Positions 3,940 to 22,595 of a stretch of DNA of 50,961 bases are shown piece by piece. The stretch covers positions 1 to 50,961 of the forward strand of contig CANFLZ010000015.1 of NCBI GenBank assembly GCA_947448135.1. The letters are read 5' to 3'. Positions within the stretch are counted from its first letter, which is position 1, and each line of letters begins with the position of its first letter. The stretch comes from Flavobacteriales bacterium. Lineage in GTDB: Bacteria > Bacteroidota > Bacteroidia > Flavobacteriales_D > Sanyastnellaceae. The translations under genes and the position numbers were made by a program. Below the pieces are notes generated by a model. That model was not told where the DNA came from, made no database searches, and saw only the letters and a program-made list of their open reading frames with translations.

Positions 3940-4714
3940 GACAATATTCGTTGTAGCATTGATCCTGCTTTTGGGATGCGATGCCCCTAATAATAACGTC
4001 ACGACAAATTCAATTACCGATGAAACGAAGCTTTTTGTCCTTTCCGTTTTAGATGATGTTGGCGACACCATAGCCAAGGATTTTTCGGTTCGAATGAAAT
4101 TGCCAATGGATACAACGTTTATGGGGTCGGTCCCCCATGTTATTTCTTACACTCAATTTAAGGAGATCGACAGCTTGATTGTACAGGAGGATATGGTCTC
4201 TCTTCGTCGATTTTACGATATTCGTTGTGCTGGTGATTATGTTAGGTTAAAGCGCAGAATTGAAATGAGTGGTCCACAAAAGTATAAGGCCAATTACGTT
4301 CAGGATGTGGACTGGACCAAGGTCAATGCCAACCAAGTCAATTGTATATTTGAAATTTGGGGCATCTATGGCGAGGAGTTTTTTCAGGCAGTCACCCAAG
4401 CCAATCGCCAGGGCAAGTCATTGGCTGAGTTCCATTATGAAAGGACAGAAGGCAATCAAGCCGATAAGGACTTTTTCAAGCATGCCAACGATTCTGTATT
4501 TCGCAAAGCATATTATCCTTCCCAATATTACCTCACATGGGATGATGCAGAGACCGAAGCATTCCGCATCACAGACAAAGGCGTCATCGGTGATTTGAAT
4601 GGAGACGGAGTGGCGGATCGATTGTTGCGATATTGCAAGCAAGGATTCGCAGGGGTTTGTGGCGTGACCAGGAAGGAGAGGGGAGGGAGGTTGGCGTTTT
4701 TTGAGGTGAATTAA
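3932..4714 (+). CDS. putative lipoprotein with a C-terminal Ca-loop-like motif
   Basis: A 260-aa protein whose N-terminus (hydrophobic run ending Leu-Leu-Leu-Gly-Cys16) is a lipobox, so it should be a lipidated envelope protein. Near the C-terminus, Asp-Leu-Asn-Gly-Asp-Gly-Val-Ala-Asp (about residues 216-224) has the spacing of a calcium-binding loop as in dockerin or TSP3/FG-GAP-like repeats. The middle was not recognised. It is coupled to the anchored protein upstream (8-bp overlap) and ends 4 bp inside the convergent gene 4711-5193. Confidence 0.65.
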   Translation: MDRTIFVVALILLLGCDAPNNNVTTNSITDETKLFVLSVLDDVGDTIAKDFSVRMKLPMDTTFMGSVPHVISYTQFKEIDSLIVQEDMVSLRRFYDIRCAGDYVRLKRRIEMSGPQKYKANYVQDVDWTKVNANQVNCIFEIWGIYGEEFFQAVTQANRQGKSLAEFHYERTEGNQADKDFFKHANDSVFRKAYYPSQYYLTWDDAETEAFRITDKGVIGDLNGDGVADRLLRYCKQGFAGVCGVTRKERGGRLAFFEVN

Positions 4715-5193
4715 GGCCCAACTTGGTCAATAGAAGGAATTAAAAATGCAAAAATGGGTACAAATGTCTCAACAAATTGAATCAGTAAAATGATAGAAAC
4801 ATTGTGAAGCAAAAAGAAATAAGTTGCTTTTTTTCGATTTTCTAAGTTATAAATTTGAGGCTTAATTAAAGCGATGAGATAAGGAATGGTCATGAAAAGA
4901 AAAGAAAGAAACCATAAGAGCATTTCAGAAAAAACAACGTCATTTAATTCAGAGCCCCAATATCGCCCTACAGTATGGTCAATATAAGCGCAGACTAAAT
5001 AGACGAAACTCGTTAAAAGGGGTGTTAGCACGGGGAGAGAAATACATGTCTTATTAAGTAATTCAGGGTTTATGTTTTGTCTTAATTTCTCGCTTATAAT
5101 TCCATTTGAAAAATGGTATGCGCAAAAAATGAATGAAAGGCTGTAACCAGCAAAGAATATCAATAAAGAAAGAAACCAAGCTATCGTATCCAT
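4711..5193 (-). CDS. four-helix integral membrane protein
   Basis: A 160-aa hydrophobic protein with about four membrane segments (roughly residues 5-27, 54-71, 85-110 and 123-154) and short loops. Family not recognised. It lies 37 bp downstream of the GH24 lysozyme gene on the same strand and may be co-transcribed with it and the DUF5715 peptidase. Next to a lysozyme, a small membrane protein could be holin-like or protective, but four helices and 160 residues are atypical for a holin, so this is speculation. Confidence 0.6.
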   Translation of the reverse strand: MDTIAWFLSLLIFFAGYSLSFIFCAYHFSNGIISEKLRQNINPELLNKTCISLPVLTPLLTSFVYLVCAYIDHTVGRYWGSELNDVVFSEMLLWFLSFLFMTIPYLIALIKPQIYNLENRKKATYFFLLHNVSIILLIQFVETFVPIFAFLIPSIDQVGP

Positions 5194-5230
5194 GTTCAGT
5201 AGTTTGTTGATTTTTCAAGTTTAGTTTTAG

Positions 5231-5683
5231 TTATCCCTCGATTGAAATTGCATGATTGAAGAACAATTCGGCCTCAGTTCTTCGCCTTTTAATTAGGCCA
5301 TTAATGACAACACCGTTAGCACTGATATATCTGTTCTCGAACCAATCTCTAATTTCTTGTGGTGAAGCGTTGCAATTGATTAACTCGAAAAGTGTTTCTG
5401 ATCCTCCTGTGTTGTAGGTGTGCGAAACCAGCGCGTCGAATTGATTCTGAGATAAGTTAACCTTGATGTTTGTTTTTACGATATTCTCAAATGCTACCAG
5501 ATCGCTTTTCAGTTGAGCTTCGGCATCATCGATGGTGATGATGTTGTTCTCATTTACCGGCCTTCCAAAAATTTGAGTCGAGCCATATCCAATGGTCCAG
5601 CGATTGGCGGTGCATTGATATGCCTTTAATTGCAACCCCTCAAATTTTTGGATTAACGCTATGCCGGTAATTGAAGTTTTCAT
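5231..5683 (-). CDS. GH24 phage-type lysozyme
   Basis: A 150-aa protein with the T4-lysozyme-like (GH24) N-terminal signature: Lys-Phe-Glu15-Gly, then Ala-Tyr-Gln-Cys24, then Trp-Thr30-Ile-Gly-Tyr-Gly. Glu15 and Thr30 match the T4 catalytic Glu11 and Thr26. The Asp20 position is Cys24; Cys is known at this site in other phage lysozymes, and a Cys substitution is reported to be tolerated in T4 lysozyme (from memory). It should cleave the N-acetylmuramic acid-GlcNAc bond of peptidoglycan. There is no signal peptide, so export would need a holin-like or other route. It follows the DUF5715 peptidase by 12 bp. No other phage genes are nearby. Confidence 0.9.
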   Translation of the reverse strand: MKTSITGIALIQKFEGLQLKAYQCTANRWTIGYGSTQIFGRPVNENNIITIDDAEAQLKSDLVAFENIVKTNIKVNLSQNQFDALVSHTYNTGGSETLFELINCNASPQEIRDWFENRYISANGVVINGLIKRRRTEAELFFNHAISIEG

Positions 5684-5695
5684 GTCAAAGGAAAA

Positions 5696-6403
5696 TTAAT
5701 TTCTGGGAACGATGTGAAAACACTTGCTTGTAGCACCAAACTCTTTGGTTTTGTATAATCTTCTTTGCGATTGAAAATCTTCAATAACTTTTTCAAGTGA
5801 TAATTGAAGGTATTTCAATTCATATTGGTCCAGATTCAAGGGTTGATTATATTGATTGAGAAATTCGATATAGGATATATCAATGGCACAACCATTTTTA
5901 TGTGCGCTTTCTGCGCTTGAGCTTGCGGGGTTGTTGTCTTTTAATCTAAACAGCGATGTCACTTTTAATTTGGCATTGAAAAGATCAGATTTACTAATTC
6001 TCTTCTTGAAATTATTTGAAATTTGATAGAGGATTTCCCTGGTTTTCGGAATCACGTATCGCATTTCTTTGTCTTTTATTTTCAATGCATAAGCCCAATT
6101 GGATAATGGAACGGGAACCAGTTTTTGCTTTTTAATTAGACCTTTTAGATTGGCTTTAATCTTCACAGGCTGAACCCCCATCATTCTTACTTCATCCTTA
6201 TAGTCTATCAGTTTATCGTTGGGTAAATATTTGAGTTGTGGCAAGGGATATTCTTTGGAGCATGTATTGTTTCTAATCAGTTGCTTGATTTTATTGGTGA
6301 CACGATTTGAACTACGAGAAACACCCAATAATAAAATAAATCCGATCGATAATAGAAATAAAAATGAGCCAACGGCTATTAAGATTTTGATTTTTTTTCT
6401 CAT
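5696..6403 (-). CDS. DUF5715-like, peptidase M15-superfamily protein
   Basis: A 235-aa protein with an N-terminal membrane anchor (about residues 7-28) and an M15/Hedgehog-type zinc-peptidase C-terminus: Ser-Ala-His168, Asp175-Ile-Ser and Cys-Phe-His230-Ile-Val-Pro-Arg give the His-Asp-His metal site. A preceding Thr-Ser-Leu-Phe-Arg segment (149-153) is typical of DUF5715 proteins in Bacteroidota. The fold cleaves peptide cross-links in peptidoglycan in characterised members, here probably in the periplasm. It lies 12 bp upstream of the lysozyme gene, so two wall-degrading activities are encoded together, 82 bp downstream of an XRE regulator. Confidence 0.75.
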   Translation of the reverse strand: MRKKIKILIAVGSFLFLLSIGFILLLGVSRSSNRVTNKIKQLIRNNTCSKEYPLPQLKYLPNDKLIDYKDEVRMMGVQPVKIKANLKGLIKKQKLVPVPLSNWAYALKIKDKEMRYVIPKTREILYQISNNFKKRISKSDLFNAKLKVTSLFRLKDNNPASSSAESAHKNGCAIDISYIEFLNQYNQPLNLDQYELKYLQLSLEKVIEDFQSQRRLYKTKEFGATSKCFHIVPRN

Positions 6404-6484
6404 GGAGTTGAAGCAGTTGGGTTGAAACTTAAAATAGTATGTATCTAACAGTAAAGGATAAGCTAAAATTTGAAATTAGATTAG

Positions 6485-6811
6485 CTACCCTTCACCACAC
6501 AATTTGCGCAGTCGGTTATTCTCTCTTTCTAGTGCAAGGATATATTTCTCTTTGTAATGATCAGTGGATGGTTGTGTGCCATTTTTATCAGAAGCAGTAT
6601 TGGCGTTGTTGAAATCCAGCAACTGAAGGAGGTCTATTTTTAATTCAATGCAGATTTGTTCTATTCGGGACAAAGGAATATCCGTTTCACCGCGTTCGAT
6701 TTTCCCATAGCCACTGGCGGTCATGCCCAGTCGATCAGCAAAATCCTCGCGGGTGATTTTTTTTGCCTCTCTATAATTCCTGATTTTATTTCCTGCCTTT
6801 TTGTTTATCAT
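6485..6811 (-). CDS. XRE-family helix-turn-helix regulator
   Basis: The start is taken at 6811, giving 108 aa; an in-frame ATG at 6880 would add 23 residues that run through the operator-like palindrome and look non-coding. Residues 5-62 form an XRE/Cro helix-turn-helix (Ile-Thr-Arg-Glu-Asp-Phe-Ala, then Thr-Ala-Ser-Gly-Tyr-Gly-Lys-Ile-Glu-Arg-Gly). The C-terminus is a short coiled coil suited to dimerisation. The gene is divergent from the seven-gene operon starting at 6940, and the palindrome at 6856-6872 lies between them, near where the -33 region of its own promoter should be. Autoregulation and control of that operon are likely but inferred. Confidence 0.88.
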   Translation of the reverse strand: MINKKAGNKIRNYREAKKITREDFADRLGMTASGYGKIERGETDIPLSRIEQICIELKIDLLQLLDFNNANTASDKNGTQPSTDHYKEKYILALERENNRLRKLCGEG

Positions 6812-6939: not shown

Positions 6940-7899
6940 ATGCCCACAGCCAATTACATTAACAATCGCCAGAATTTTGAACCTTCGCAAGCTACCAGAA
7001 TAGCTTGGATTAAAACTCGGAAACAAGAAACACGATATGGATCTACGAGTTTGCCAGGCATGTTTGGAACTACTGGATTTTCAACGGATACTAGCTGGAT
7101 AATTTTGGCTGGAATTATAGAATTGGCAGCGGTTGTGATGACAATATTATTGGGTTATTTTAGGGAGAATGCCTTATTTGGGGCGGTTTTCGCTGTGGTT
7201 CTTTTTTTAGTTCTTGATTATGTCGGGATATTGCTTCATACACATCAGGCTGAGGATAGAGCAAAATGGAAGAACCAGATTTTAGTCGCTCAGACGCCCC
7301 AGGATCATGCTGTATTGAAGAAAAAATTGGGTGATAGAACTTTGAAAGAGGATACAGGTGTTTTATTTCTTTTTCTTTCGGGATTTTTAAAGGTGTTAGC
7401 TATTTCCATTTTGAATAAAAGCGCACTTCCAATGATGGTACTTATATTATTTGCTATGTTTTATCTTATTGTAATATACATCCATGCTAGCCACACTGGT
7501 TATTGGTTTGCAAAGATTGATTTTAACAAGAAGTTGAGGGCTGATTATACACAATGGAGTTTGGGTAATGGTAATGGAGCTCAAGAGTATTTGCATAAAT
7601 TCAAAACCCCATTTTCGCTTCAAATGAAAGTCGGAGATAAAAAAATAGTGAATTGTCAATCTTTAGAATGTGTTTCAAAGACAGGAGAAGACTATAATTT
7701 TAAATTGATCTCTAGAGGATTAATGTGGGATCAAGATATAGCTACTTTGTGCATGGGGCTATTGTACAAAGAAATGCCAATCTTGGCGCTTGAGTGTTTA
7801 CAGTTACAACTTACCCAAATAGTTGCAAATGGTTCGGCAATCATTCATAATGATAATTCATCGAACTCGCCTTTAAGTGAAGGCTCTGATATTAATTAA
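6940..7899 (+). CDS. polytopic membrane protein, first gene of the seven-gene envelope operon
   Basis: A 319-aa protein from the ATG at 6940 (a TTG 21 bp upstream is in frame but less likely). It has an approximately 50-residue polar N-terminus, two membrane helices close together (about 52-73 and 77-99), a charged loop, two more helices (about 140-160 and 165-187) and a C-terminal soluble domain of about 125 residues. Family not recognised. It is the first gene of the run to 19410 and could be the inner-membrane platform or sensor. The gap to the next gene is 16 bp. Confidence 0.7.
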   Translation: MPTANYINNRQNFEPSQATRIAWIKTRKQETRYGSTSLPGMFGTTGFSTDTSWIILAGIIELAAVVMTILLGYFRENALFGAVFAVVLFLVLDYVGILLHTHQAEDRAKWKNQILVAQTPQDHAVLKKKLGDRTLKEDTGVLFLFLSGFLKVLAISILNKSALPMMVLILFAMFYLIVIYIHASHTGYWFAKIDFNKKLRADYTQWSLGNGNGAQEYLHKFKTPFSLQMKVGDKKIVNCQSLECVSKTGEDYNFKLISRGLMWDQDIATLCMGLLYKEMPILALECLQLQLTQIVANGSAIIHNDNSSNSPLSEGSDIN

Positions 7900-7915
7900 G
7901 AAAAAAGAAATTAAA

Positions 7916-9058
7916 ATGAATAGATTAGTATTAATGATAATTGGAGCTGTCGCATTGATGGCAGTTGCTTTTTTTGCATTTAAAGATCAGGTGGTAACAT
8001 CGGGTGCAAGTTCAGATACGGGAAGTATTAAAATGACGGAAGTGGTTCTGAATTTAAATTGCCCTGTAGATCAATCGGTATTAATGAATTTAATTGAGGT
8101 ATACGGGGACAACAGTTGTCCAAAGATTACCATTAAAAGATTAGATCTAAAGAACAATAATCAAACGACAATTGAGCCAAGCTTTTCTTGGTTAACCACG
8201 TTCAAGTCCTCATTTTTTCCATTGGTAAAGGAAGATTTAGAGGAGGATATCAAAGGTTTTAAAAATGCTGCTTTGACAGAGGATGTTCAAAGGCTTTTGA
8301 CAACAGCCCAAGGCGCAGGTGCGGATTGTTATTACAATTCTGTCCAAGCGAATTTTACGTTCAAGTCAACCCAAATGAACAGCAACAATCTTACGGCCTA
8401 TGTCAACAAAGAAGTGGCTCAGGGTAAGAATAAGGTTGTTTTTAAGGTGTTGAAATGTACAGTGCCTCAAAAAGACAGTGATGGTGATGGGTTCCATGAC
8501 GGTATAGATAAATGTCCAAGTGTGTTTGGTAAAATTAATGGTTGCCCTCCTCCTCCAAGAGATAGGGATGGTGATGGTTTCCCTGATAATCAGGATGCTT
8601 GTCCAGATGAAAGAGGACGATTGAGAGGATGTCCTGATTCCGATGGAGATGGGATAGCTGATGATCGCGATAAGTGTAAAGACGAAAAGGGTTCGGTCAA
8701 GAACAATGGTTGCCCTGCAACTACTCCCGTTCGATTCCGATTAGCTGATGATGGAAAAACACTAAGATTTTCGGGAGGAAATATTGGAAATGAATTATTT
8801 CGCATACAGTTCTTTGATAAGAAGGATGGTAAGTCAAGATCATCTGATGTTTTTGAATTGAGACCAGGTGAAACGGAATTTATTATTAGTAAGAAGGCTT
8901 TGGGTCAGTTGTACAAATCAGCTAAGATTGTTGGTCGTGATTATCAACCCAATCAGTCTGACAGAAGCATTCAGCCTTTTACTGTAGAATTGAGAGACCG
9001 AAATTCGAATAGAATCCTTAAACAAGAAGTTTGGTTGAATTGTCAAGCTCTTAATTAA
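7916..9058 (+). CDS. membrane-anchored protein with thrombospondin type 3 repeats
   Basis: The start is taken at 7916 (380 aa): it begins Met-Asn-Arg-Leu followed by a hydrophobic segment (about residues 3-22), whereas an upstream frame start at 7877 lies inside the previous gene. Residues 26-185 are an unrecognised extracytoplasmic domain with four Cys. Residues 187-266 hold three TSP3 units (Asp-Ser-Asp-Gly-Asp-Gly-Phe and variants, each followed by a Cys-Pro), which bind calcium and act as rigid spacers, often in OmpA-like outer-membrane proteins. A beta-rich domain follows (about 270-380). There is no OmpA peptidoglycan-binding motif, so it is not a standard OmpA protein. Confidence 0.8.
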   Translation: MNRLVLMIIGAVALMAVAFFAFKDQVVTSGASSDTGSIKMTEVVLNLNCPVDQSVLMNLIEVYGDNSCPKITIKRLDLKNNNQTTIEPSFSWLTTFKSSFFPLVKEDLEEDIKGFKNAALTEDVQRLLTTAQGAGADCYYNSVQANFTFKSTQMNSNNLTAYVNKEVAQGKNKVVFKVLKCTVPQKDSDGDGFHDGIDKCPSVFGKINGCPPPPRDRDGDGFPDNQDACPDERGRLRGCPDSDGDGIADDRDKCKDEKGSVKNNGCPATTPVRFRLADDGKTLRFSGGNIGNELFRIQFFDKKDGKSRSSDVFELRPGETEFIISKKALGQLYKSAKIVGRDYQPNQSDRSIQPFTVELRDRNSNRILKQEVWLNCQALN

Positions 9059-9065
9059 TCATAGA

Positions 9066-10310
9066 ATGAAACGGATTTTTTTACTGGGGCTATTATTTTT
9101 TGCTCATTGCTTGTCTATGATGGCATCGGCTGACATCCGAATAATTGTCAATACAGCGTCTCGAAACGAGATATTCGGAGAAGAATTGAATGAAAAGAAA
9201 GCGGCCAAACGAATTCAAAGAAAGTTAAGAGGTACCCATATCAAAAAACTAGGTTGCTTAGAAGAAGGTAATTTAGAGGATGGGTTGAGAATTGTCGGCG
9301 GCACTTGTTTTATGCAGGCTGGAAATTGCGGATTTAATGCCGTTAATGAGCTGACTAAGTATGTTCAGTCGTTCATGAACAGTCAAATAGTTTATGTTAA
9401 TTGTTCAGCGAAATTTCTCATGGAAAGAATCCCCGATGGTGTTTCTGTATATACATGGAATGAGGCTATTGATAAAGTGTTGGAATTGCAATCAGATAAG
9501 AATATTGAGAATGTTTTTTTAGTGAGTATTGGTGGTAGTTACAAAAACGAGTCACCTGAATTGGATTTGCAAAAGGACGACGGAAGCGTCAGTGCCAATT
9601 GTGAATTTTGCAATTCCGAAGGATATTATTATTGGATAGTAGATGGCGGAAAACCAAAAAAACAAAGGTCTGCAGAGTATGCTGTAAATAAGTCATTTTC
9701 CTCAATTGAATGTTATTGGGAGGATGATTTAACCGGATGCAAAAGCAATATGTTTTTATTGAAAGGGGAAAATATGTTTGTTCAAAGAGATTGCGATCTT
9801 AGGGTGTCCAACCCATCCTTCAGCAAAAAGGTTGAATACAAAGACGATGGAGGGAAACTTCATAAATTGATTAGTATTGATACTGAATTTAATGATGATT
9901 GCTACATTTTTCATCAATCACCGCATGGTGATTATTACATTCTCATAGATTCTATTTGTGATGTTTCAAAAATCGAGCTTGTGATAAAGGATATTGAAGG
10001 GCAGGCGTTTTCATATCCTGAATTGCTTATTGGGTCATCGAAACTTCTGAATAGGCAATTCTTGAGATTAGAAAAGCAAGCGCAATATGATAATGGAGAA
10101 ATTAAAGCAAGGGACAATTGGTATAGTGAATTGCAAGTTTTGAAATCTCAACCGAGATCTTTTCTATTAACAATTAGCACTAACTCATTCAGTACTGATA
10201 GCATTCCTCGTTTTCATGAGGTTTTTTATCTGTCGGCAGTTTACTATTTAAATAATGGAAAAAAAATAGAGGTTAAGCCAATTAAAGTAGTATTTAATCC
10301 ATGTGAGTGA
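9066..10310 (+). CDS. secreted protein of unknown function
   Basis: A 414-aa protein with a signal peptide (hydrophobic residues 4-20, likely cleavage after Ala-Ser-Ala about residue 22). The first 150 residues look alpha/beta (basic helix around 42-55, strand ending Val-Phe-Leu-Val-Ser-Ile-Gly-Gly). Later parts are beta-rich, with Cys-X2-Cys near residue 182 and more Cys that may form disulfides. No catalytic motif recognised. The stop overlaps the next start by one base, so it belongs to the operon. Likely periplasmic. Confidence 0.65.
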   Translation: MKRIFLLGLLFFAHCLSMMASADIRIIVNTASRNEIFGEELNEKKAAKRIQRKLRGTHIKKLGCLEEGNLEDGLRIVGGTCFMQAGNCGFNAVNELTKYVQSFMNSQIVYVNCSAKFLMERIPDGVSVYTWNEAIDKVLELQSDKNIENVFLVSIGGSYKNESPELDLQKDDGSVSANCEFCNSEGYYYWIVDGGKPKKQRSAEYAVNKSFSSIECYWEDDLTGCKSNMFLLKGENMFVQRDCDLRVSNPSFSKKVEYKDDGGKLHKLISIDTEFNDDCYIFHQSPHGDYYILIDSICDVSKIELVIKDIEGQAFSYPELLIGSSKLLNRQFLRLEKQAQYDNGEIKARDNWYSELQVLKSQPRSFLLTISTNSFSTDSIPRFHEVFYLSAVYYLNNGKKIEVKPIKVVFNPCE

Positions 10311-14700: not shown

Positions 14701-16353
14701 AGTAATGTTTATTCATGGACGGGTATTGCCGAGAATCCATTGAATTTATCATCAGGAAGTAACAGTGGTAATTCGAACTCGATTAATCAAATATGGGTTA
14801 ATTCAACCTCGGATATTTTGAATGTTCAGTATAGTGCACAGGTCATAAACAATGGATGTGTAAGCGCGCCATTGACCTGGAATATAGCTGTGAAGCCTTT
14901 ACCAGTATTAATTAACACGCCACAGAACGCGTTTGTGTGTTCAGGTGAGAATTTTTCATTTGCTCCTGTATGGAGCATCTCAACAGCTGCATATACATGG
15001 ACGCGAACCAGTCCAGGGTCAGCTTCAGGATCTACACCAATAAATGAAGTATTATCAAACGTTTCGAATAATCCCGTAAATGCCAACTATAGTATATTGG
15101 GATCGGCAAACGGTTGCAACTCAGGAATTAGTAATTTCTTTGTTTCAATTAATCCATTGCCTGCGCCAGCAAGTTATGGCCCTTTAGTTTTCTGTAATGA
15201 TGAAGTGGCAACCATTCATTTATCCAATTGGACTGGATATGACGTGGAATGGAGCCCTGCGAACTTGTTTACCGATTACCAATCTGCATTGACTGTATTT
15301 GTAGGTTCACAATCTTCAACGGTTACAGCAACAGCTCAAAACACTTATGGTTGCTCTTTGCAGGAGGTTATTGATATAACCATCGGAGAACCATTGGACG
15401 CTTCTTTTTCGTTGGATGGAGGTCCTTGTCAAGGCAGTACAATATCGGTGGCCGCCATCAATCCCAATTATGATTCGTATACATGGAATATAAATGGAAA
15501 TGAAGTCAATTCAGGGTCAACTTCCTTTGCATTGGGCGTATCTGATTCAGTGGCATTGACTGTTCAGGATGAGAATGGGTGTACATCAACAACTTCTCAG
15601 TCATTGGCAGGAATCGCAAATCCACAAAATGAAATATTTGGATCTGATATTTTGTGTCAGAATCAATCTTACGTGACGTTTCATTCGCTTGCGATTGATG
15701 GAGATATTCATTGGAGTGCGGTTAATGCAACTTTGATGGGTGGTCAGGGATTTACTGAGGCTGTTTTTGAATTTGGTCAAAGTAACCAAGCCATTATTTA
15801 TTTGAAATCAACCAATTTGTCGGGATGCAGTACATTGGATTCTTTGGTCATTTCCCTGGCGGGTCAAGCGGACTCGAGCTATTCCATTTATATGTTGGGT
15901 ATTTCAACATTGGTACACCCAGACAGCACTTTTGAGACATATCATTGGGGTAAAACCAATATTGCAACAGGCATTGAAGATTCGGAATGGTCCAGTTATC
16001 AGTATTTCAATTATGGCAATCTGGATTTAACGCAGTATTATTATTGGGTAGAAACCACCAATGGCGAAGGTTGTATTACACGCAGTTATTTCAATTCTCC
16101 GAACATCCCCAATGGACTTGAAGAACAAAAAACTTCTCAAATCAATGTGTATCCCAATCCAACATCAGAGGGTTATATCAAATTCTCCGTTGGACGAGTT
16201 GAAAGTGTTCAGGTTTTTGATCAAATGGGACGCTTTGTTTTGGGTGTTACAAATACAGATGTGGTTGATTTATCTGAATTAGGAAGTGGCGTTTATTTTG
16301 TATTCTTAAAAGTCAACGGCGAATATTCTTCCCACAAATTAATTAAACTCTAA
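11764..16353 (+). CDS. giant T9SS-exported repeat surface protein (adhesin-like)
   Basis: A 1529-aa protein: signal peptide (to about residue 19), an Ig-like N-terminal unit, four near-identical 95-aa repeats (residues 115-494), then about ten more diverged Ig/PKD-like units rich in Ser, Thr, Asn and Gly. The last 75 residues are a type A T9SS sorting domain (Val-Tyr-Pro-Asn-Pro-Thr, later Gly-Val-Tyr-Phe-Val and Lys-Leu at the end), so it should be exported by T9SS and attached to the cell surface. Adhesion or matrix function is inferred from architecture. It sits between the barrel gene (2-bp gap) and the lipoprotein protease (start overlaps the stop as TAATG). Confidence 0.85.
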   Translation: MRIIFVIMLVTSALFSQAQCIATQPVNASTCQGTSELATFSLVATDATAYAWQVYNSSTSAWEDIVNNGNYSGANTASLAVSGLNTNAVVISFRCMVTNATGPCETSAIATLTVKPKPVLTVSGNNSVCSGVTGNVNLTLTNSLGSSGATWAWNRDVMAGITPNTSSGVSSAIGETLTNSTSSSIQLSYTATTTTLSCVSAPVTYIVIIKPKPVLTVSGNNSVCSGVTGNVNLTLTNSLGSGGATWTWNRDAMAGITPNTSSGVSSAIGETLTNSTSSSIQVSYIATTTTAGCVSAPVSYNVTIKPKPVLTVTGNNSVCSGVTGNVNLTLTNSLGSGGATWSWNRDLLSGITPNTNSGTSSSIGETLTNSTSSSIQVSYTATTTTASCVSAPVTYNVTIKPKPVITLTGNNSVCSGVSGNVNLTLSNNLGSSGATWSWSRDVMSGIAPNTNSGTSSSIGETLTNSTSSSIQVSYMATTTTAGCISSQQTFILTIKPKPNIQSASLSICSSNPIVFSPVNDADNIVPTSTLYSWSAPTSFSLSGMTAGNAQSAFGQTLTNTSGSDQNITYTVTPNSAGCQGSVFTVNASIKFEPFPALISSAQSICSGESVQLFVNGGATYAWTPNTNINATFIENPTVSPTASTSYNVLVTGSNGCSVSRSVAVTVNTNPTITNIPSSVPSVCSGGTYSFTPTTSPGATYEWTRENNGAYSSNVTNGSSAITNTLVNELQGPTTVAYHFNVVNSTTGCVNAQTLNVMVYPLPSIANAADFVSSVCSNEPFNYSLEGSSSVNYTWTRTLGSSLSSSNPNSGTSAIVNHSFVNNSNSQKWVEYSFALTTTAGGCQATETLGMWVQPNISLGSSTGSICSGNAIDYFPSVANNLNDVTVYWTRNSLPSGLTSTGASQGQGGISQTIINTTSAPLSVSYSLQGYYNGCSSITPNASYSITVNPTPVISLSNTNNGVCSNSNWSTNLLSNITIGSNVYSWTGIAENPLNLSSGSNSGNSNSINQIWVNSTSDILNVQYSAQVINNGCVSAPLTWNIAVKPLPVLINTPQNAFVCSGENFSFAPVWSISTAAYTWTRTSPGSASGSTPINEVLSNVSNNPVNANYSILGSANGCNSGISNFFVSINPLPAPASYGPLVFCNDEVATIHLSNWTGYDVEWSPANLFTDYQSALTVFVGSQSSTVTATAQNTYGCSLQEVIDITIGEPLDASFSLDGGPCQGSTISVAAINPNYDSYTWNINGNEVNSGSTSFALGVSDSVALTVQDENGCTSTTSQSLAGIANPQNEIFGSDILCQNQSYVTFHSLAIDGDIHWSAVNATLMGGQGFTEAVFEFGQSNQAIIYLKSTNLSGCSTLDSLVISLAGQADSSYSIYMLGISTLVHPDSTFETYHWGKTNIATGIEDSEWSSYQYFNYGNLDLTQYYYWVETTNGEGCITRSYFNSPNIPNGLEEQKTSQINVYPNPTSEGYIKFSVGRVESVQVFDQMGRFVLGVTNTDVVDLSELGSGVYFVFLKVNGEYSSHKLIKL
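12106..13245 (+). repeat. four tandem 285-bp coding repeats
   Basis: Units start at 12106, 12391, 12676 and 12961 and end at 13245. Each is exactly 285 bp (95 codons) and begins with Lys-Pro-Lys-Pro followed by Val-Leu-Thr-Val or similar. Long stretches are identical at the DNA level between neighbours, showing recent duplication or ongoing gene conversion; the units after 13246 are strongly diverged. Confidence 0.92.
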
Positions 16354-17114
16354 TGCGTCGTGTAATTTACATCCTATCACTATTCGTAGTTTCTTGCGAA
16401 ATGCCAAATGGTAATAATCAATCCGGTGATATGTCCCATTGGTTGGATATTGGATACAATGGAGGAGATTCAACAAATGGAAATAGAACTGGTATTACAA
16501 GGGATGATTCTTCGGAACAAGAAACTGGAATATCTGAGGCTATTTCAATTGGAGATGCTTTGAAGGGAACTTATTCGGTTATAATTCGAACAGAAAACGG
16601 AGGCGATGTCATAGGGTCAGGATTTTTAATTGCTCCGGATTTATTGGTCACCAATTTCCATGTTGTAGAAGGGTTTAGTTTCGGATTTGTAAGGCAAAAT
16701 GACAAGTCACCTCGGTATAACATAGACGAGATTTTAAAGGTTGATGCCGTTAATGATGTTGCCATTTTGCGAGTCAAATCCATTCAAGATCCATTTGTTT
16801 TGCCGTTGAGTTCGTACATGCCAAAGCTTGGAGATAGAATATATGCCTTGGGATGCCCAAAAGGATTAGAGGGGACAATGAGCAGTGGAATTATATCACA
16901 ATTTAGAGAGCGAGATGGTCGGGGGATTTGTAGAGATGCAGAGTCGGCTATCTACTACCAAACGGACGTTCAGATCAATCATGGGAGTAGCGGTGGGCCA
17001 ATATTAAATGAGAAAGGGTATGTTATCGCAATAGCGTTAGGAGGATTTGGAGACGGTTTGAATTTCTTGGTGCCAGCGCGGTTTATCGATGTATTGAATA
17101 AGGGTACTTTTTAA
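16353..17114 (+). CDS. lipoprotein trypsin-like serine protease
   Basis: A 253-aa protein whose N-terminus ends Phe-Val-Val-Ser-Cys15, a lipobox, so it is predicted to be lipid-anchored in the envelope. After a polar linker (16-70) comes a trypsin-fold (S1/HtrA-like) domain: Gly-Ser-Gly-Phe-Leu (88-92), Thr-Asn-Phe-His103-Val-Val-Glu-Gly, Asn-Asp135-Val-Ala-Ile-Leu and Gly-Ser-Ser213-Gly-Gly-Pro give the complete His-Asp-Ser triad. No PDZ domain follows, unlike DegP. It starts on the stop of the giant surface protein gene and is followed 10 bp later by a second protease gene. It may process or quality-control operon products. Confidence 0.85.
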   Translation: MRRVIYILSLFVVSCEMPNGNNQSGDMSHWLDIGYNGGDSTNGNRTGITRDDSSEQETGISEAISIGDALKGTYSVIIRTENGGDVIGSGFLIAPDLLVTNFHVVEGFSFGFVRQNDKSPRYNIDEILKVDAVNDVAILRVKSIQDPFVLPLSSYMPKLGDRIYALGCPKGLEGTMSSGIISQFRERDGRGICRDAESAIYYQTDVQINHGSSGGPILNEKGYVIAIALGGFGDGLNFLVPARFIDVLNKGTF

Positions 17115-17124
17115 GATAAATAAT

Positions 17125-19410
17125 ATGAAATTTTTTTTGACAATAGTAACCATTTGCTTTTTGTCTTGTTACGCATTCAGTCAAAAGTACGAGCCTGATA
17201 GTGTGGTCGCTTTTACTGACAAGGGATGCAAACTAATTGATTATTATTTCGAGGATTCTCTTACCTACCTGTGGAGCGGAGAATGTAAATCAGGATGGAT
17301 AGAAGGTGATGGCCTATTAATTAAAATTAGAAAGGGAAAAAAGTATTCAACGACGTCGGCCAGATTCGAAAGAGGAATTTCCCAAGGTAAGGGGATATTC
17401 AAGCTTCATCAAACCAATGAACGATATGAAGGAATATATGTGGATGGGCAAATTAGAGGAATTGGTAAGTATTGGAATGACAATGGTGATTACTACCAAG
17501 GTCAAATTATAAACTTTATTTTGCATGGGAATGGCAAGATGACTTATGCCAATGGATCGACGTTTGAAGGTAAGTTCAATGTATCTAAATATTGGACAGG
17601 AAAATTTACCAACTTAAAAGATGAAGTGTCTTATTTATATCGTAGGACCAATGTAGAAAAGCTTCCCAAGGGGATTGAATATAGTCCTAAGCTTGGCCAA
17701 GAATTAACGGAGTATTTCGATGCTGAGTGGAATCGATGTAGCAAAAAAGACGCAGTTTATTTTCGGAAAGTGACTTATTCAGCGCCCAATATTCCTTCTG
17801 GAAGAGTTAGAGATTACTACATTGATGGGACAATGCAAAATGAATACTTGCCGCTCTATATCGATTACGAGGATGACCAAATGACATTCCATGGGAAGTA
17901 CAAAACGGTCTACTATTATAAGTCAGGAGGTCCGTCTTCTATATGCTTTTATGATCATCAGTCTCGTAAGTCAGGTTATGAGTATGATTTTTATGAAAGT
18001 GGAGAATTGTTTTCAGAGACAATATATGGCAGTTTAGGATTGATGGATGGACCTTATCGTGAATTTTACAAGGACGGGAGTTTAAAGGGTTATGCCAAAT
18101 ATTCGTACGGAGATCGTGTGAATAACGCTTATTGGCAAATATCAGAGAAGGGGAACTGGATAGGCGTGTTTTTATTGAATTTTGCCGAGGAGTTTGAAAA
18201 GTTTGAAATGCTGAATAATTGTGCAAATGTTTTCGAATATTCAAACATGCTTTGCATTAAAATACCGGAGAAGGATTGTTATTATTTTAACCCATCTATA
18301 CTTGAGGTAGATGGCGAGAATTTGTTTTCATTACAACTTGATTTGGTTTTGGATGAGCCAGATGATGAGCGCGTGTTTGGTGTGATTTTTAATTATGAAG
18401 ATGATAAAAATTTTTCTGTTTTGAAGCTAAGCGGTAATAAATTGTATGCCATTTCCAGTTTTCGCAATGGTAATGAAAGTGTAGATATTCCCTGGACAAA
18501 ATTGAATATTATTTTGGATAAAGGCAGTTTGAATTATGATGTCCTTCTCACTTTTTTGAAAGACGAAATGGTACTGGAGATTAACGATTTGGAGGTGAAT
18601 AGAATTCCTTTCCATCGTTCAAGTTCCATGCAGTGTGGTCTATTTGCGCGTGGAAAAGGCTTATCTGTGATTAGAGATTTCGGTGAGGTAGTTTATTTTG
18701 ACGAAGAGTCTTCCAAGGGGTACTCTGATTTTGCAATAGCAGAGAGAGAAGGTAAAAGTACTGAAACCGAATCAGATGGTTTTACGGGAAATGGAAGTGG
18801 ATTTTTGGTTTCCAATGATGGTTATATCGCCACCAATTACCATGTTATCGAAGGGGCGAATACAATTCAAGTGGAATTTGATTTTGAGGAAGGTCGAGAA
18901 GCCTACAAAGCGCAAGTTGTACAATTTGATAAAGAGAATGATGTAGCAATTGTTAAAGTGGATTTTGGCGATAAGGAGATTGAACTACCATATCAGATAG
19001 CCTCTCGATTGCAGGATGTCGGTTCAGAGATTTTTACTTTGGGTTATCCCTATGCAGATGTAATGGGAAGTGAAATTAAATTTACTGACGGGTCAATTAA
19101 TTCACGAACTGGAATTCAAGGGGATATCCGTTTCTATCAAATTTCAGCTCCCATCCAGCCTGGGAACAGCGGTGGACCATGCTTTAATGCAAATGGAGAA
19201 GTTATTGGGATTGTAACCCAAGCGTTGAATAATGATAAGTATCAAAATCAGAATGTTAACTATGTCCTTAAAATTTCATATTTGGAAAACTTAATGGCTT
19301 TGTTGCCTGAAAGGTCGATGAACTATACTCCTCGCGCAATAAATAACAAGTCTATTTCGAACATGGTTAAGTATTACAAAATTTACGTTCCAATTATTCT
19401 AACAAAATAA
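17125..19410 (+). CDS. MORN-repeat / beta-sandwich / trypsin-like protease fusion
   Basis: A 761-aa secreted protein (signal peptide to about residue 19). Residues 55-160 contain classical MORN repeats (Tyr-Glu-Gly-Ile-Tyr-Val-Asp-Gly type) and residues 255-330 hold MORN_2-like units. Residues 380-525 look like a LamG-like beta-sandwich. Residues 555-725 are a trypsin-like domain with triad His573 (Thr-Asn-Tyr-His-Val), Asp606 (Glu-Asn-Asp-Val-Ala) and Ser682 (Gly-Asn-Ser-Gly-Gly-Pro). It is the last gene of the operon and shares the protease type with the gene before it. MORN arrays usually mediate protein or lipid contacts, so the protease may be targeted by them. Confidence 0.82.
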   Translation: MKFFLTIVTICFLSCYAFSQKYEPDSVVAFTDKGCKLIDYYFEDSLTYLWSGECKSGWIEGDGLLIKIRKGKKYSTTSARFERGISQGKGIFKLHQTNERYEGIYVDGQIRGIGKYWNDNGDYYQGQIINFILHGNGKMTYANGSTFEGKFNVSKYWTGKFTNLKDEVSYLYRRTNVEKLPKGIEYSPKLGQELTEYFDAEWNRCSKKDAVYFRKVTYSAPNIPSGRVRDYYIDGTMQNEYLPLYIDYEDDQMTFHGKYKTVYYYKSGGPSSICFYDHQSRKSGYEYDFYESGELFSETIYGSLGLMDGPYREFYKDGSLKGYAKYSYGDRVNNAYWQISEKGNWIGVFLLNFAEEFEKFEMLNNCANVFEYSNMLCIKIPEKDCYYFNPSILEVDGENLFSLQLDLVLDEPDDERVFGVIFNYEDDKNFSVLKLSGNKLYAISSFRNGNESVDIPWTKLNIILDKGSLNYDVLLTFLKDEMVLEINDLEVNRIPFHRSSSMQCGLFARGKGLSVIRDFGEVVYFDEESSKGYSDFAIAEREGKSTETESDGFTGNGSGFLVSNDGYIATNYHVIEGANTIQVEFDFEEGREAYKAQVVQFDKENDVAIVKVDFGDKEIELPYQIASRLQDVGSEIFTLGYPYADVMGSEIKFTDGSINSRTGIQGDIRFYQISAPIQPGNSGGPCFNANGEVIGIVTQALNNDKYQNQNVNYVLKISYLENLMALLPERSMNYTPRAINNKSISNMVKYYKIYVPIILTK

Positions 19411-20807: not shown

Positions 20808-20885
20808 TCCCTACCCCGGATAGGAGTGGAAAGCCCGCAGGGGAGGGAACCGACCCGAGGACTTGGAACGGATAGCCGGATGGGG
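20808..20885. other. GC-rich structured intergenic element
   Basis: A patch of about 78 bp, far richer in G+C than its surroundings, sits in the 217-bp gap between the DUF1810 pseudogene and the LTD gene. It runs from CCCTACCCCGGATAGGAG through AAGCCCGCAGGGG to AACGGATAGCCGGATGGGG. CCGGATRG-like words recur at both ends, and the outer CTACCCC can pair with GGGG. I recall similar elements between genes of other Bacteroidota but cannot verify this here. It could be a small RNA or an interspersed palindromic element. Confidence 0.45.
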
Positions 20886-20948
20886 TTCAAAGAAATTGCA
20901 TTTGGCCTTTTAACACCACAAACAAATTCCCCATTGCCCCCCAACGCT

Positions 20949-20956
20949 TATATTTG
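20949..20956 (+). promoter_or_regulatory. -7 promoter element TATATTTG of the LTD gene
   Basis: A consensus Bacteroidota -7 box ends four bases before the ATG at 20961, which fixes that start against an upstream in-frame ATG at 20826 and implies an almost leaderless mRNA. Confidence 0.65.
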
Positions 20957-20960
20957 TTAT

Positions 20961-22595
20961 ATGAAAATGAATTTCTTGTTAGCATTGTGTTTACTCGGTG
21001 TCGTGACGGCGCAAGGACAATCTTTGTATATCAACGAACTGGTGGCCTCCAACAACCAAGATCAAATGGATGAGTTCTTTGAGTTTGATGACTGGATCGA
21101 GATCTACAACACAGGAGGGATTACCAACCTGGCGGGGTACTTTTTGTCGGATGATCCTGATTCATTGGATAAATATCTGATCCCCAACGATCCTGCCCTT
21201 ACCACCATCTTGCCCAATGGCTACCTTATTTTCTGGTGTGACAAGGACAACGCTACCCAAGGGAGTAATCATACCAACTTTACGCTGAAGTCAAGCGGAG
21301 AAACTGTTTACCTCACAGCCCCCGATGGGATGACCATTATAGATAGTGTTTCTTATCCCCAGATGGCTTCAGACATTAGTTATGGTCGATCTTGCGATGG
21401 TTGTCCTACATGGCAATATTTTAACAATACCACATGGAATGCAATGAACCAAGAGTTGATCAATCCAAACGGTGAATTGCTTTTTATCAATGAGGTGCAA
21501 TCGATGAATACACATACCATCCATGATCTAGCGTTTGAATTTGATCCTTGGATGGAAATTTATAATCCCAACACGTTTCAGGTGAATTTGGCAGGTTACC
21601 AAATCGCCAATTCAAATGGGGTGTATACAATTCCTATTAATAGCCCAGTCGAAACGATTATTCCAGCCGGCGAATTTCGAGTGTTGTGGTTTGACCATGA
21701 TTTAACACAAGGAGCAATGCATTTGGATTTAGATCTCCTTCAGCAAGGAAGTCTGCAATTGTTGGCGCCCAATGGAAACGCTGTTGTTGATGCCGTGAAC
21801 TACAACTTGGTGGCTGTCGACCATAGTTGGGGAAGAAGCTCTGATGGAGGTAGTTCTTGGATTACATTTAATGTACCCACACCAACAGCCACCAACAATT
21901 TGTTTATCATTCCAGGTTATGCAGTGAAAATCAACGAGGTGATGGCCAAAAATTTAACCACTTGGATGGATAACTATGGGGAATATGAAGATTGGGTGGA
22001 GATATACAATCCACTGGGAACTGCAGTGAATCTGAGTGGTTACTACTTTTCTGACAACCCCGAAATTCGCAACAAATGGCAAATCCCAGGAACTTTTCCG
22101 GATAGTGTCACGGTTCCTGCCCACGGTTGGCGATTGTTCTTTTGCGATGCCGATTTGAATCAAGGTGTATTGCACAACAACTTTAGCCTTTCCAATGGCG
22201 GTGAGTATGTTGGATTATTTGGGCCTGATGGCTTTAGTTTGGTGGATGAAGTGCAATGGACTTTTATGGGAGCGGATACCACCTATGGTCGTTTGTATGA
22301 TGGTGATGTGCAATGGGTCCAGTTCACCACTTTTACGACAGTTTCTCCGGAGGCTAGCAATGGCGTTAATCCAACCGTGCAAGAGTTGCATTCAACTGAA
22401 TGGCGCGTCTTTCCCAATCCGACAATGGATATTTTACAATTTAACGGGCCCGTCTCAGCTCGGATTTACAATGAACAAGGTCTACTGGTGATGAACTTGA
22501 AAAATCAAACTTCAATGAATGTGCAGGATTGGGCTGCCGGGTCCTACATGATTGTCCGAGACGATGGGCGCGCTGTCCGTTGGATCAAGAAATAG
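20961..22595 (+). CDS. T9SS-exported protein with three lamin-tail (LTD) domains
   Basis: 544 aa from the ATG at 20961, chosen because a signal peptide starts there (Met-Lys-Met-Asn-Phe, hydrophobic to Ala-Gln-Gly-Gln) and a TATATTTG box lies just upstream; the frame extends to 20826 without sense. Three LTD beta-sandwich domains begin at Ile-Asn-Glu motifs (about residues 22, 177 and 323), each with Trp-(Ile/Met/Val)-Glu-Ile-Tyr-Asn and a Tyr-Gly-Arg or Trp-Gly-Arg near the end. The C-terminal 70 residues are a T9SS type A domain (Val-Phe-Pro-Asn-Pro-Thr). LTD domains occur in extracellular proteins with nucleases or anchors; this one has no catalytic domain. Confidence 0.88.
   Translation: MKMNFLLALCLLGVVTAQGQSLYINELVASNNQDQMDEFFEFDDWIEIYNTGGITNLAGYFLSDDPDSLDKYLIPNDPALTTILPNGYLIFWCDKDNATQGSNHTNFTLKSSGETVYLTAPDGMTIIDSVSYPQMASDISYGRSCDGCPTWQYFNNTTWNAMNQELINPNGELLFINEVQSMNTHTIHDLAFEFDPWMEIYNPNTFQVNLAGYQIANSNGVYTIPINSPVETIIPAGEFRVLWFDHDLTQGAMHLDLDLLQQGSLQLLAPNGNAVVDAVNYNLVAVDHSWGRSSDGGSSWITFNVPTPTATNNLFIIPGYAVKINEVMAKNLTTWMDNYGEYEDWVEIYNPLGTAVNLSGYYFSDNPEIRNKWQIPGTFPDSVTVPAHGWRLFFCDADLNQGVLHNNFSLSNGGEYVGLFGPDGFSLVDEVQWTFMGADTTYGRLYDGDVQWVQFTTFTTVSPEASNGVNPTVQELHSTEWRVFPNPTMDILQFNGPVSARIYNEQGLLVMNLKNQTSMNVQDWAAGSYMIVRDDGRAVRWIKK

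Follow-up and report, generated by a model that had tools for sequence, protein, structure and literature searches.

The stretch of DNA analysed here, referred to as the window, comprises 50,961 nucleotides and represents contig C15 of a draft genome that amounts to 2.5 Mb and is split into 103 contigs. It carries a same-strand run of genes, at the end of which the gene for a giant protein of 1529 residues is followed by those for two trypsin-type proteases, named P1 and P2 (Table 1), and by a rhodanese-like gene. PKD_5 repeats and a T9SS sorting tail were identified in the giant protein by Pfam, the P1 start overlaps the stop codon of the gene upstream (TAATG), and P1 and P2 are spaced by 10 bases. 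Also within the operon, positions 7877-9058 encode a thrombospondin type 3 repeat protein with weak likeness to TraB/MtsC models and positions 9066-10310 a secreted-looking protein of 414 residues, for which no significant Pfam or NCBIfam match was obtained; among 60 related genomes the latter gene was found in one, namely the window's own. Divergent from the operon, a phage-lysozyme-like gene adjoins a DUF5715 gene (5231-6403, minus strand), and positions 20826-22595 encode a protein in which three lamin-tail domains are combined with a T9SS sorting tail.

Table 1. Features of the two proteases and their positions in the window.
Feature	Position	Strand	Basis
P1, lipoprotein-like canonical trypsin-type protease of 253 residues, triad H103/D135/S213	16353..17114	+	Pfam, residue check; lipobox by eye
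P1 N-terminal helix and beta1 strand (ISIGDALKGTYSVIIRT), at the usual place before GSGF	16542..16592	+	alignment
P2, MORN / beta-sandwich / permuted (probable) trypsin-type protease of 761 residues	17125..19410	+	Pfam, alignment, residue check
P2 signal peptide, residues 1-19	17125..17181	+	by eye
P2 MORN-type repeats, about residues 101-168	17425..17628	+	Pfam, alignment
P2 second repeat set, MORN_2-like, following the first up to about residue 345		+	Pfam, alignment
P2 concanavalin-like beta-sandwich, CBM66/galectin-like, about residues 347-527	18163..18705	+	low-confidence model
P2 protease core, GSGF (residue 557) to C-terminal helix (about 724), with H573, D606, S682	18793..19296	+	model, alignment
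P2 C-terminal tail, residues 743-761, SISNMVKYYKIYVPIILTK; helix and strand, putative relocated beta1	19351..19407	+	profiles, model

In a preliminary description of this DNA, P1 and P2 were identified as adjacent proteases with intact catalytic triads and without PDZ domains, all of which was confirmed: both reading frames and both triads are as listed in Table 1, and Pfam returned no match to any PDZ family for either protein. What had been overlooked is the C-terminal tail of P2 and the absence of an N-terminal strand from its protease domain. Neither protein qualifies as a member of the HtrA/Do family as defined by TIGR02037, the whole-protein scores being 87.3 bits for P1 and 104.2 bits for P2 at a cut-off of 416.2. 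A defence-system label was not adopted for the two proteins, as the respective PADLOC matches cover the trypsin part only.

P1 is an ordinary protease that happens to share the operon of P2. It is matched by Pfam Trypsin_2 far over the cut-off (2.4e-25), possesses a lipobox-like VVSC as read by eye and, according to the alignment, stops after the C-terminal helix without any tail. At E<=1e-18, 7 of 150 genomes yielded relatives of P1. The protease cores of P1 and P2 are 34% identical when aligned, and the catalytic core of P2 is like that of the PDZ-less canonical S1C-like proteases in general, to which P1 and the proteins L008-L018 from related genomes belong. P2 differs from these proteins, in which beta1 is located ahead of GSGF and little sequence usually follows the C-terminal helix.

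The Trypsin_2 match to P2 likewise lies far over the cut-off (1.2e-27); it starts at GSGF and stops short of the tail. The triad residues H573, D606 and S682 occur without exception in the 82 proteins of the P2 family (alignment A4). In the N-terminal half of P2, MORN (PF02493) scored 21.0 bits, just below the cut-off of 22.5, and among the 82 family proteins, P2 counted in, Pfam identified MORN_2 in eight and MORN in two. No Pfam match to LamG was obtained in P2. Modelling of the subsequent region (model residues 328-508, i.e., P2 347-527) suggested a sandwich with a fold like that of CBM66 and galectins (Z ~12 over roughly 130-155 aligned residues), but sequence identity is as low as 6-16% and the mean pLDDT of the model is only 64.7. 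Foldseek searches with the whole model of the N-terminal half yielded mostly meaningless long alignments (rmsd ~20). The complete MORN-sandwich-protease layout was also identified in genomes G171 and G084, and shorter versions of it in G035, L054, L064, L065, L068, L071, L075 and L078. The closest relative of P2, L052, matches its N-terminal half over residues 1-361 by BLAST and over the entire half in the alignment, and is likewise counted among the relatives of full layout. A paralogue of P2 is encoded on another contig of the window's genome (L021; G000, contig C103, 170-1423, minus strand), in which a thioredoxin/AhpC-TSA-like N-terminal domain precedes a tailed trypsin domain.

In ordinary S1C proteases, a short helix and a strand of the type "xxVxxSVVxI", which is beta1, are located just ahead of GSGF. 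This helix-strand element was recognised in the alignment of the canonical S1C rows, P1 included, and P2 and its family depart from this strand order: inspection of the alignment by eye revealed no beta1-like stretch ahead of GSGF. In five members (L084, L090, L092, L104 and L118) no more than about 5-15 residues separate the end of the signal peptide, as judged by eye, from GSGF, which leaves no room for an upstream beta1. Instead, the family shares a conserved C-terminal helix and strand of 17-25 residues, which is found among relatives with unrelated N-terminal halves and in secreted as well as in membrane-anchored members, and whose likeness to beta1 is clearest in the proteobacterial and verrucomicrobial proteins. 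Ten family rows possess extra sequence beyond the tail, which was trimmed for the alignment. In L104 and L118, which are rhizobial-type and probably permuted proteases, further sequence is found after the tail, so that the tail is not always C-terminal. The tailed protein L081 was left out of alignment A3 by a pattern miss, and the second open reading frame of L114 was left out as it was judged spurious.

The relation of tail and beta1 was addressed by profile comparison with hhalign, using a 27-column family tail profile and a 40-row canonical profile, the rows of the latter having been drawn from searches of the phylum Bacteroidota. The tail alone gave one match, ungapped, in which tail columns 9-25 fall on template columns 28-44 and hence on exactly beta1, with a score of 15.8 (P 0.0034), which none of 200 column-shuffled tails reached (mean 7.5, SD 1.3). 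The hhalign probability of this match is just 9.6% because the tail is short. When the tail columns were put first, the match to the template was extended from 46-210 to 28-210 and the score rose from 294.1 to 303.8 (304.7 without the last column), whereby the match of the rotated profile runs without a break from beta1 through to the C-terminal helix. None of 200 rotations with shuffled tails reached the rotated score (mean 294.9, SD 1.3, maximum 299.9), and an unrelated segment placed in front instead of the tail gave no gain (292.7). At the level of single sequences, 80 of 81 rows gained upon rotation, yet no more than 10 of the 81 scored above each of their own 20 shuffles; P2 by itself is not among these and gained 0.3 bits, which equals its shuffle mean. 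A coupling of P756 in the tail with L561 in beta2 ranked sixth of 18,915 pairs, which is suggestive only, given 100 rows and an Neff of 73. Among the best 60 of 133 PDB chains matched by the family profile, none covers the tail columns and none extends past column 179 of 207. Alignments and profiles taken together show, at the level of sequence and profile, that the tail matches beta1, that beta1 is missing upstream and that the family is coherent.

AlphaFold2, run on the 81-row alignment, returned a model with a mean pLDDT of 90.5, in which the tail is predicted to be an ordered helix (205-215) and strand (218-221), the last two blocks having a pLDDT of 96-97. The linker of about 15-20 residues that connects core and tail is of lower confidence. 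DegS and HtrA1 were identified as the nearest structures to the model of the P2 family. VIA-align superposed it to DegS/HtrA with a Z of 21, whereby only model residues 13-191 were matched and the tail was not; sequential alignment to DegS, HtrA1 and DegP is expected to leave the tail unmatched if it sits non-sequentially in the fold. We infer that the tail takes the place of beta1 in the N-terminal barrel of its own chain. In the DegP entries, the structural match begins at residue 83. PMC4339722 gives residues 38-79 as the LA loop of DegP and describes inhibitory contacts of this loop near the active site. As the match starts just past this loop, the permutation break is placed within it. 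P2 is probably an S1C/HtrA-like serine protease in which circular permutation occurred naturally, with the cut in the regulatory LA loop.

The coherence of the family is also documented by phylogeny. A core-only tree, from which the tail and beta1 columns were removed and for which 55 of the 81 rows with a tail and 21 of the 40 canonical ones were taken with P1 excluded, separates tailed from canonical proteins by one branch (support 100/99), a split that is present in every one of 200 bootstrap trees (100%). In a preceding quick tree with P1 included, two label changes were required, because P1, having a branch length of 3.57, fell beside a tailed row without support. P2 and the other tailed proteases are best read as a single large branch of the S1C-like proteases that underwent circular permutation. 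A profile of core and tail was searched against 395 genomes of the phylum, where nearly all matches of at least 160 bits reach the last columns; these were found in at least 37 genomes, a lower bound since scoring was limited to the 8 top candidates of each genome. Ordinary HtrA proteins stayed at or below 123 bits in the same search and mostly stop near column 170. Judged by record titles, the best 80 loci in a named genome collection include members of Bacteroidota, Pseudomonadota, Verrucomicrobiota, Planctomycetes, Aminicenantes, Acidobacteriota (Granulicella) and Campylobacterota, as well as a Selenomonadales record; several of these are metagenome-assembled genomes, so that contamination of single records is possible. 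At E<=1e-38, members of the family were identified in 24 of the 299 genomes searched in the order, but in none of the six other genomes of the genus. The N-terminal domains in the 82-protein set are diverse and include MORN_2, PG_binding_1, Sel1, TPR, WG repeats, periplasmic-binding and propeller domains among others, each in one to eight of the 82 proteins. PAN domains were observed in two of the 82.

Within 120 bases of family genes, 63 same-strand neighbours were collected from the 80 loci (three loci were unplaced, and neighbours of more than 1100 residues were meant to be skipped), of which 25 carry Sigma70_r2. The five upstream genes inspected by eye are each located directly ahead of a family member, and the eight linked proteases inspected in the same way possess a short N-terminal domain, one transmembrane helix and a coiled-coil-like stretch, followed by the protease. 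This suggests that pairs of an ECF sigma factor and a membrane protease exist among the relatives of P2. Examples from Sphingobacteria, Cytophagia and Hymenobacter are L085-L130, where the ECF sigma gene directly precedes that of a transmembrane-anchored, presumably permuted protease (about 4700-6600). A Pfam anti-sigma domain was not detected in the two ECF-linked proteins scanned, and no description of ECF-sigma-linked permuted proteases was found in the open-access literature. A comparable arrangement is given by RsgI9, an anti-sigma-I factor of Clostridium thermocellum, for which PMC12203970 describes an S1C-like domain that forms the extracellular portion of this sigma regulator. RsgI9 is absent from the best 60 PDB matches to the profile of the P2 family.

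Several other explanations for the tail and for the function of P2 have to be considered. The tail is terminal in P2, amphipathic and set off from the core by the lower-confidence linker, as might be expected of a regulatory or sorting strand that was added to an ordinary fold and serves as intramolecular ligand or as C-terminal export or anchoring signal. This is regarded as quite improbable, given that the tail matches beta1 specifically and beta1 is missing in front; a terminal sorting signal is further disfavoured because ten family rows have sequence after the tail, and the presence of the tail in both secreted and membrane-anchored members speaks against the explanation as well. A T9SS sorting domain was rejected, as P2 lacks the Por_Secre_tail match that the giant protein has. 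The tail could also provide beta1 to a neighbouring subunit of an obligate oligomer, for which H. pylori HtrA sets a precedent, its N-terminal segments being swapped between subunits according to PMC11642142, and for which the length of the core-tail linker would speak. Such a domain swap is considered unlikely, the tail being placed with high confidence in a single-chain AlphaFold2 model, which is compatible with a swap all the same.

With respect to function, P2 might have no true protease activity and serve as a binding domain of protease origin, a possibility discussed for the S1C-like ectodomain of RsgI9. PMC12203970 describes that ectodomain as polysaccharide-binding, and the model of P2 includes a putative lectin-like sandwich. 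The invariance of the triad throughout the family argues against this, and it is considered unlikely. As for the preliminary description, it had furthermore suggested that P1 and P2 form a targeted cascade at the cell envelope. Two intact and apparently extracytoplasmic proteases in one operon-like run are indeed present, and both the tight spacing and overlap of the genes and the giant protein with its PKD_5 repeats and T9SS sorting tail would fit a cascade that processes this protein and the barrel named in that description. No support was obtained for a joint targeted cascade, which was rejected as highly improbable: the P2 architecture occurs in other neighbourhoods, P1 is canonical while P2 is not, relatives of P1 were found in 7 of the 150 genomes given above, and the operon gene 9066-10310 was found in one of 60, the window's own. 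The proposed link of the architecture to such operons largely fails as well. In G171 the gene for the full P2 layout adjoins those of a secreted repeat protein (by eye) and a transglutaminase-like protein, in G084 those of two small proteins, and in L052 (4363-11290) the relative of P2 is followed by the gene of a small secreted protein, another small gene, a TPR-CHAT gene and a caspase-like gene (Peptidase_C14), which makes for a series of several genes of protease type. No adjacent P1-P2 pair was seen in these three neighbourhoods. As the neighbour genes differ in every case examined, the P2 layout is not tied to the operon of the window.

Assuming that P2 is circularly permuted, the N-terminal helix and first barrel strand would have been shifted from before GSGF to the extreme C-terminus, the protease domain would start at strand beta2 and the tail would complete the N-terminal barrel. 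P2 thus shares the trypsin fold, the H-D-S order and the GNSGGP motif with the S1C/HtrA (Deg) proteases but differs from these in lacking PDZ domains, in having beta1 at the C-terminus and in carrying a putative sensor fused at the LA-loop position. The MORN-sandwich module would come to sit at this former LA-loop position, just outside GSGF, and because the new N-terminus falls there, the fused module may act as a binding or sensing device by which the active site close by is placed or gated. Once a surface or envelope ligand is bound, for which a glycan would be the natural guess from the sandwich, access to this site may change, which would render P2 a secreted, PDZ-less sensor-protease. 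More broadly, we lean slightly towards a scenario in which one ancient permutation of the trypsin fold inside the LA loop gave rise to a widespread bacterial lineage of sensor-proteases that have any N-terminal module wired to that position, with a signalling pair of ECF sigma factor and permuted protease in Sphingobacteria and Cytophagia. As part of the same narrowly favoured scenario, these modules would comprise MORN plus lectin, thioredoxin, PG-binding, periplasmic-binding and propeller domains, or an anti-sigma-like cytoplasmic domain with a transmembrane helix.

A prior description of the tailed or permuted protease family was not found in the open-access literature, may exist elsewhere, and the word stem "permut" does not occur in the available parts of PMC3434108 and PMC6524800. 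The permutation, if true, would account for the filing of such proteins as merely "trypsin-like peptidase domain". Few enzyme folds have been studied as closely as the trypsin fold, and its natural permutation over several phyla, combined with many sensor domains, would be unexpected, if true. For the family, the idea offered is that a gate at the LA-loop position may control a protease that lacks PDZ domains.
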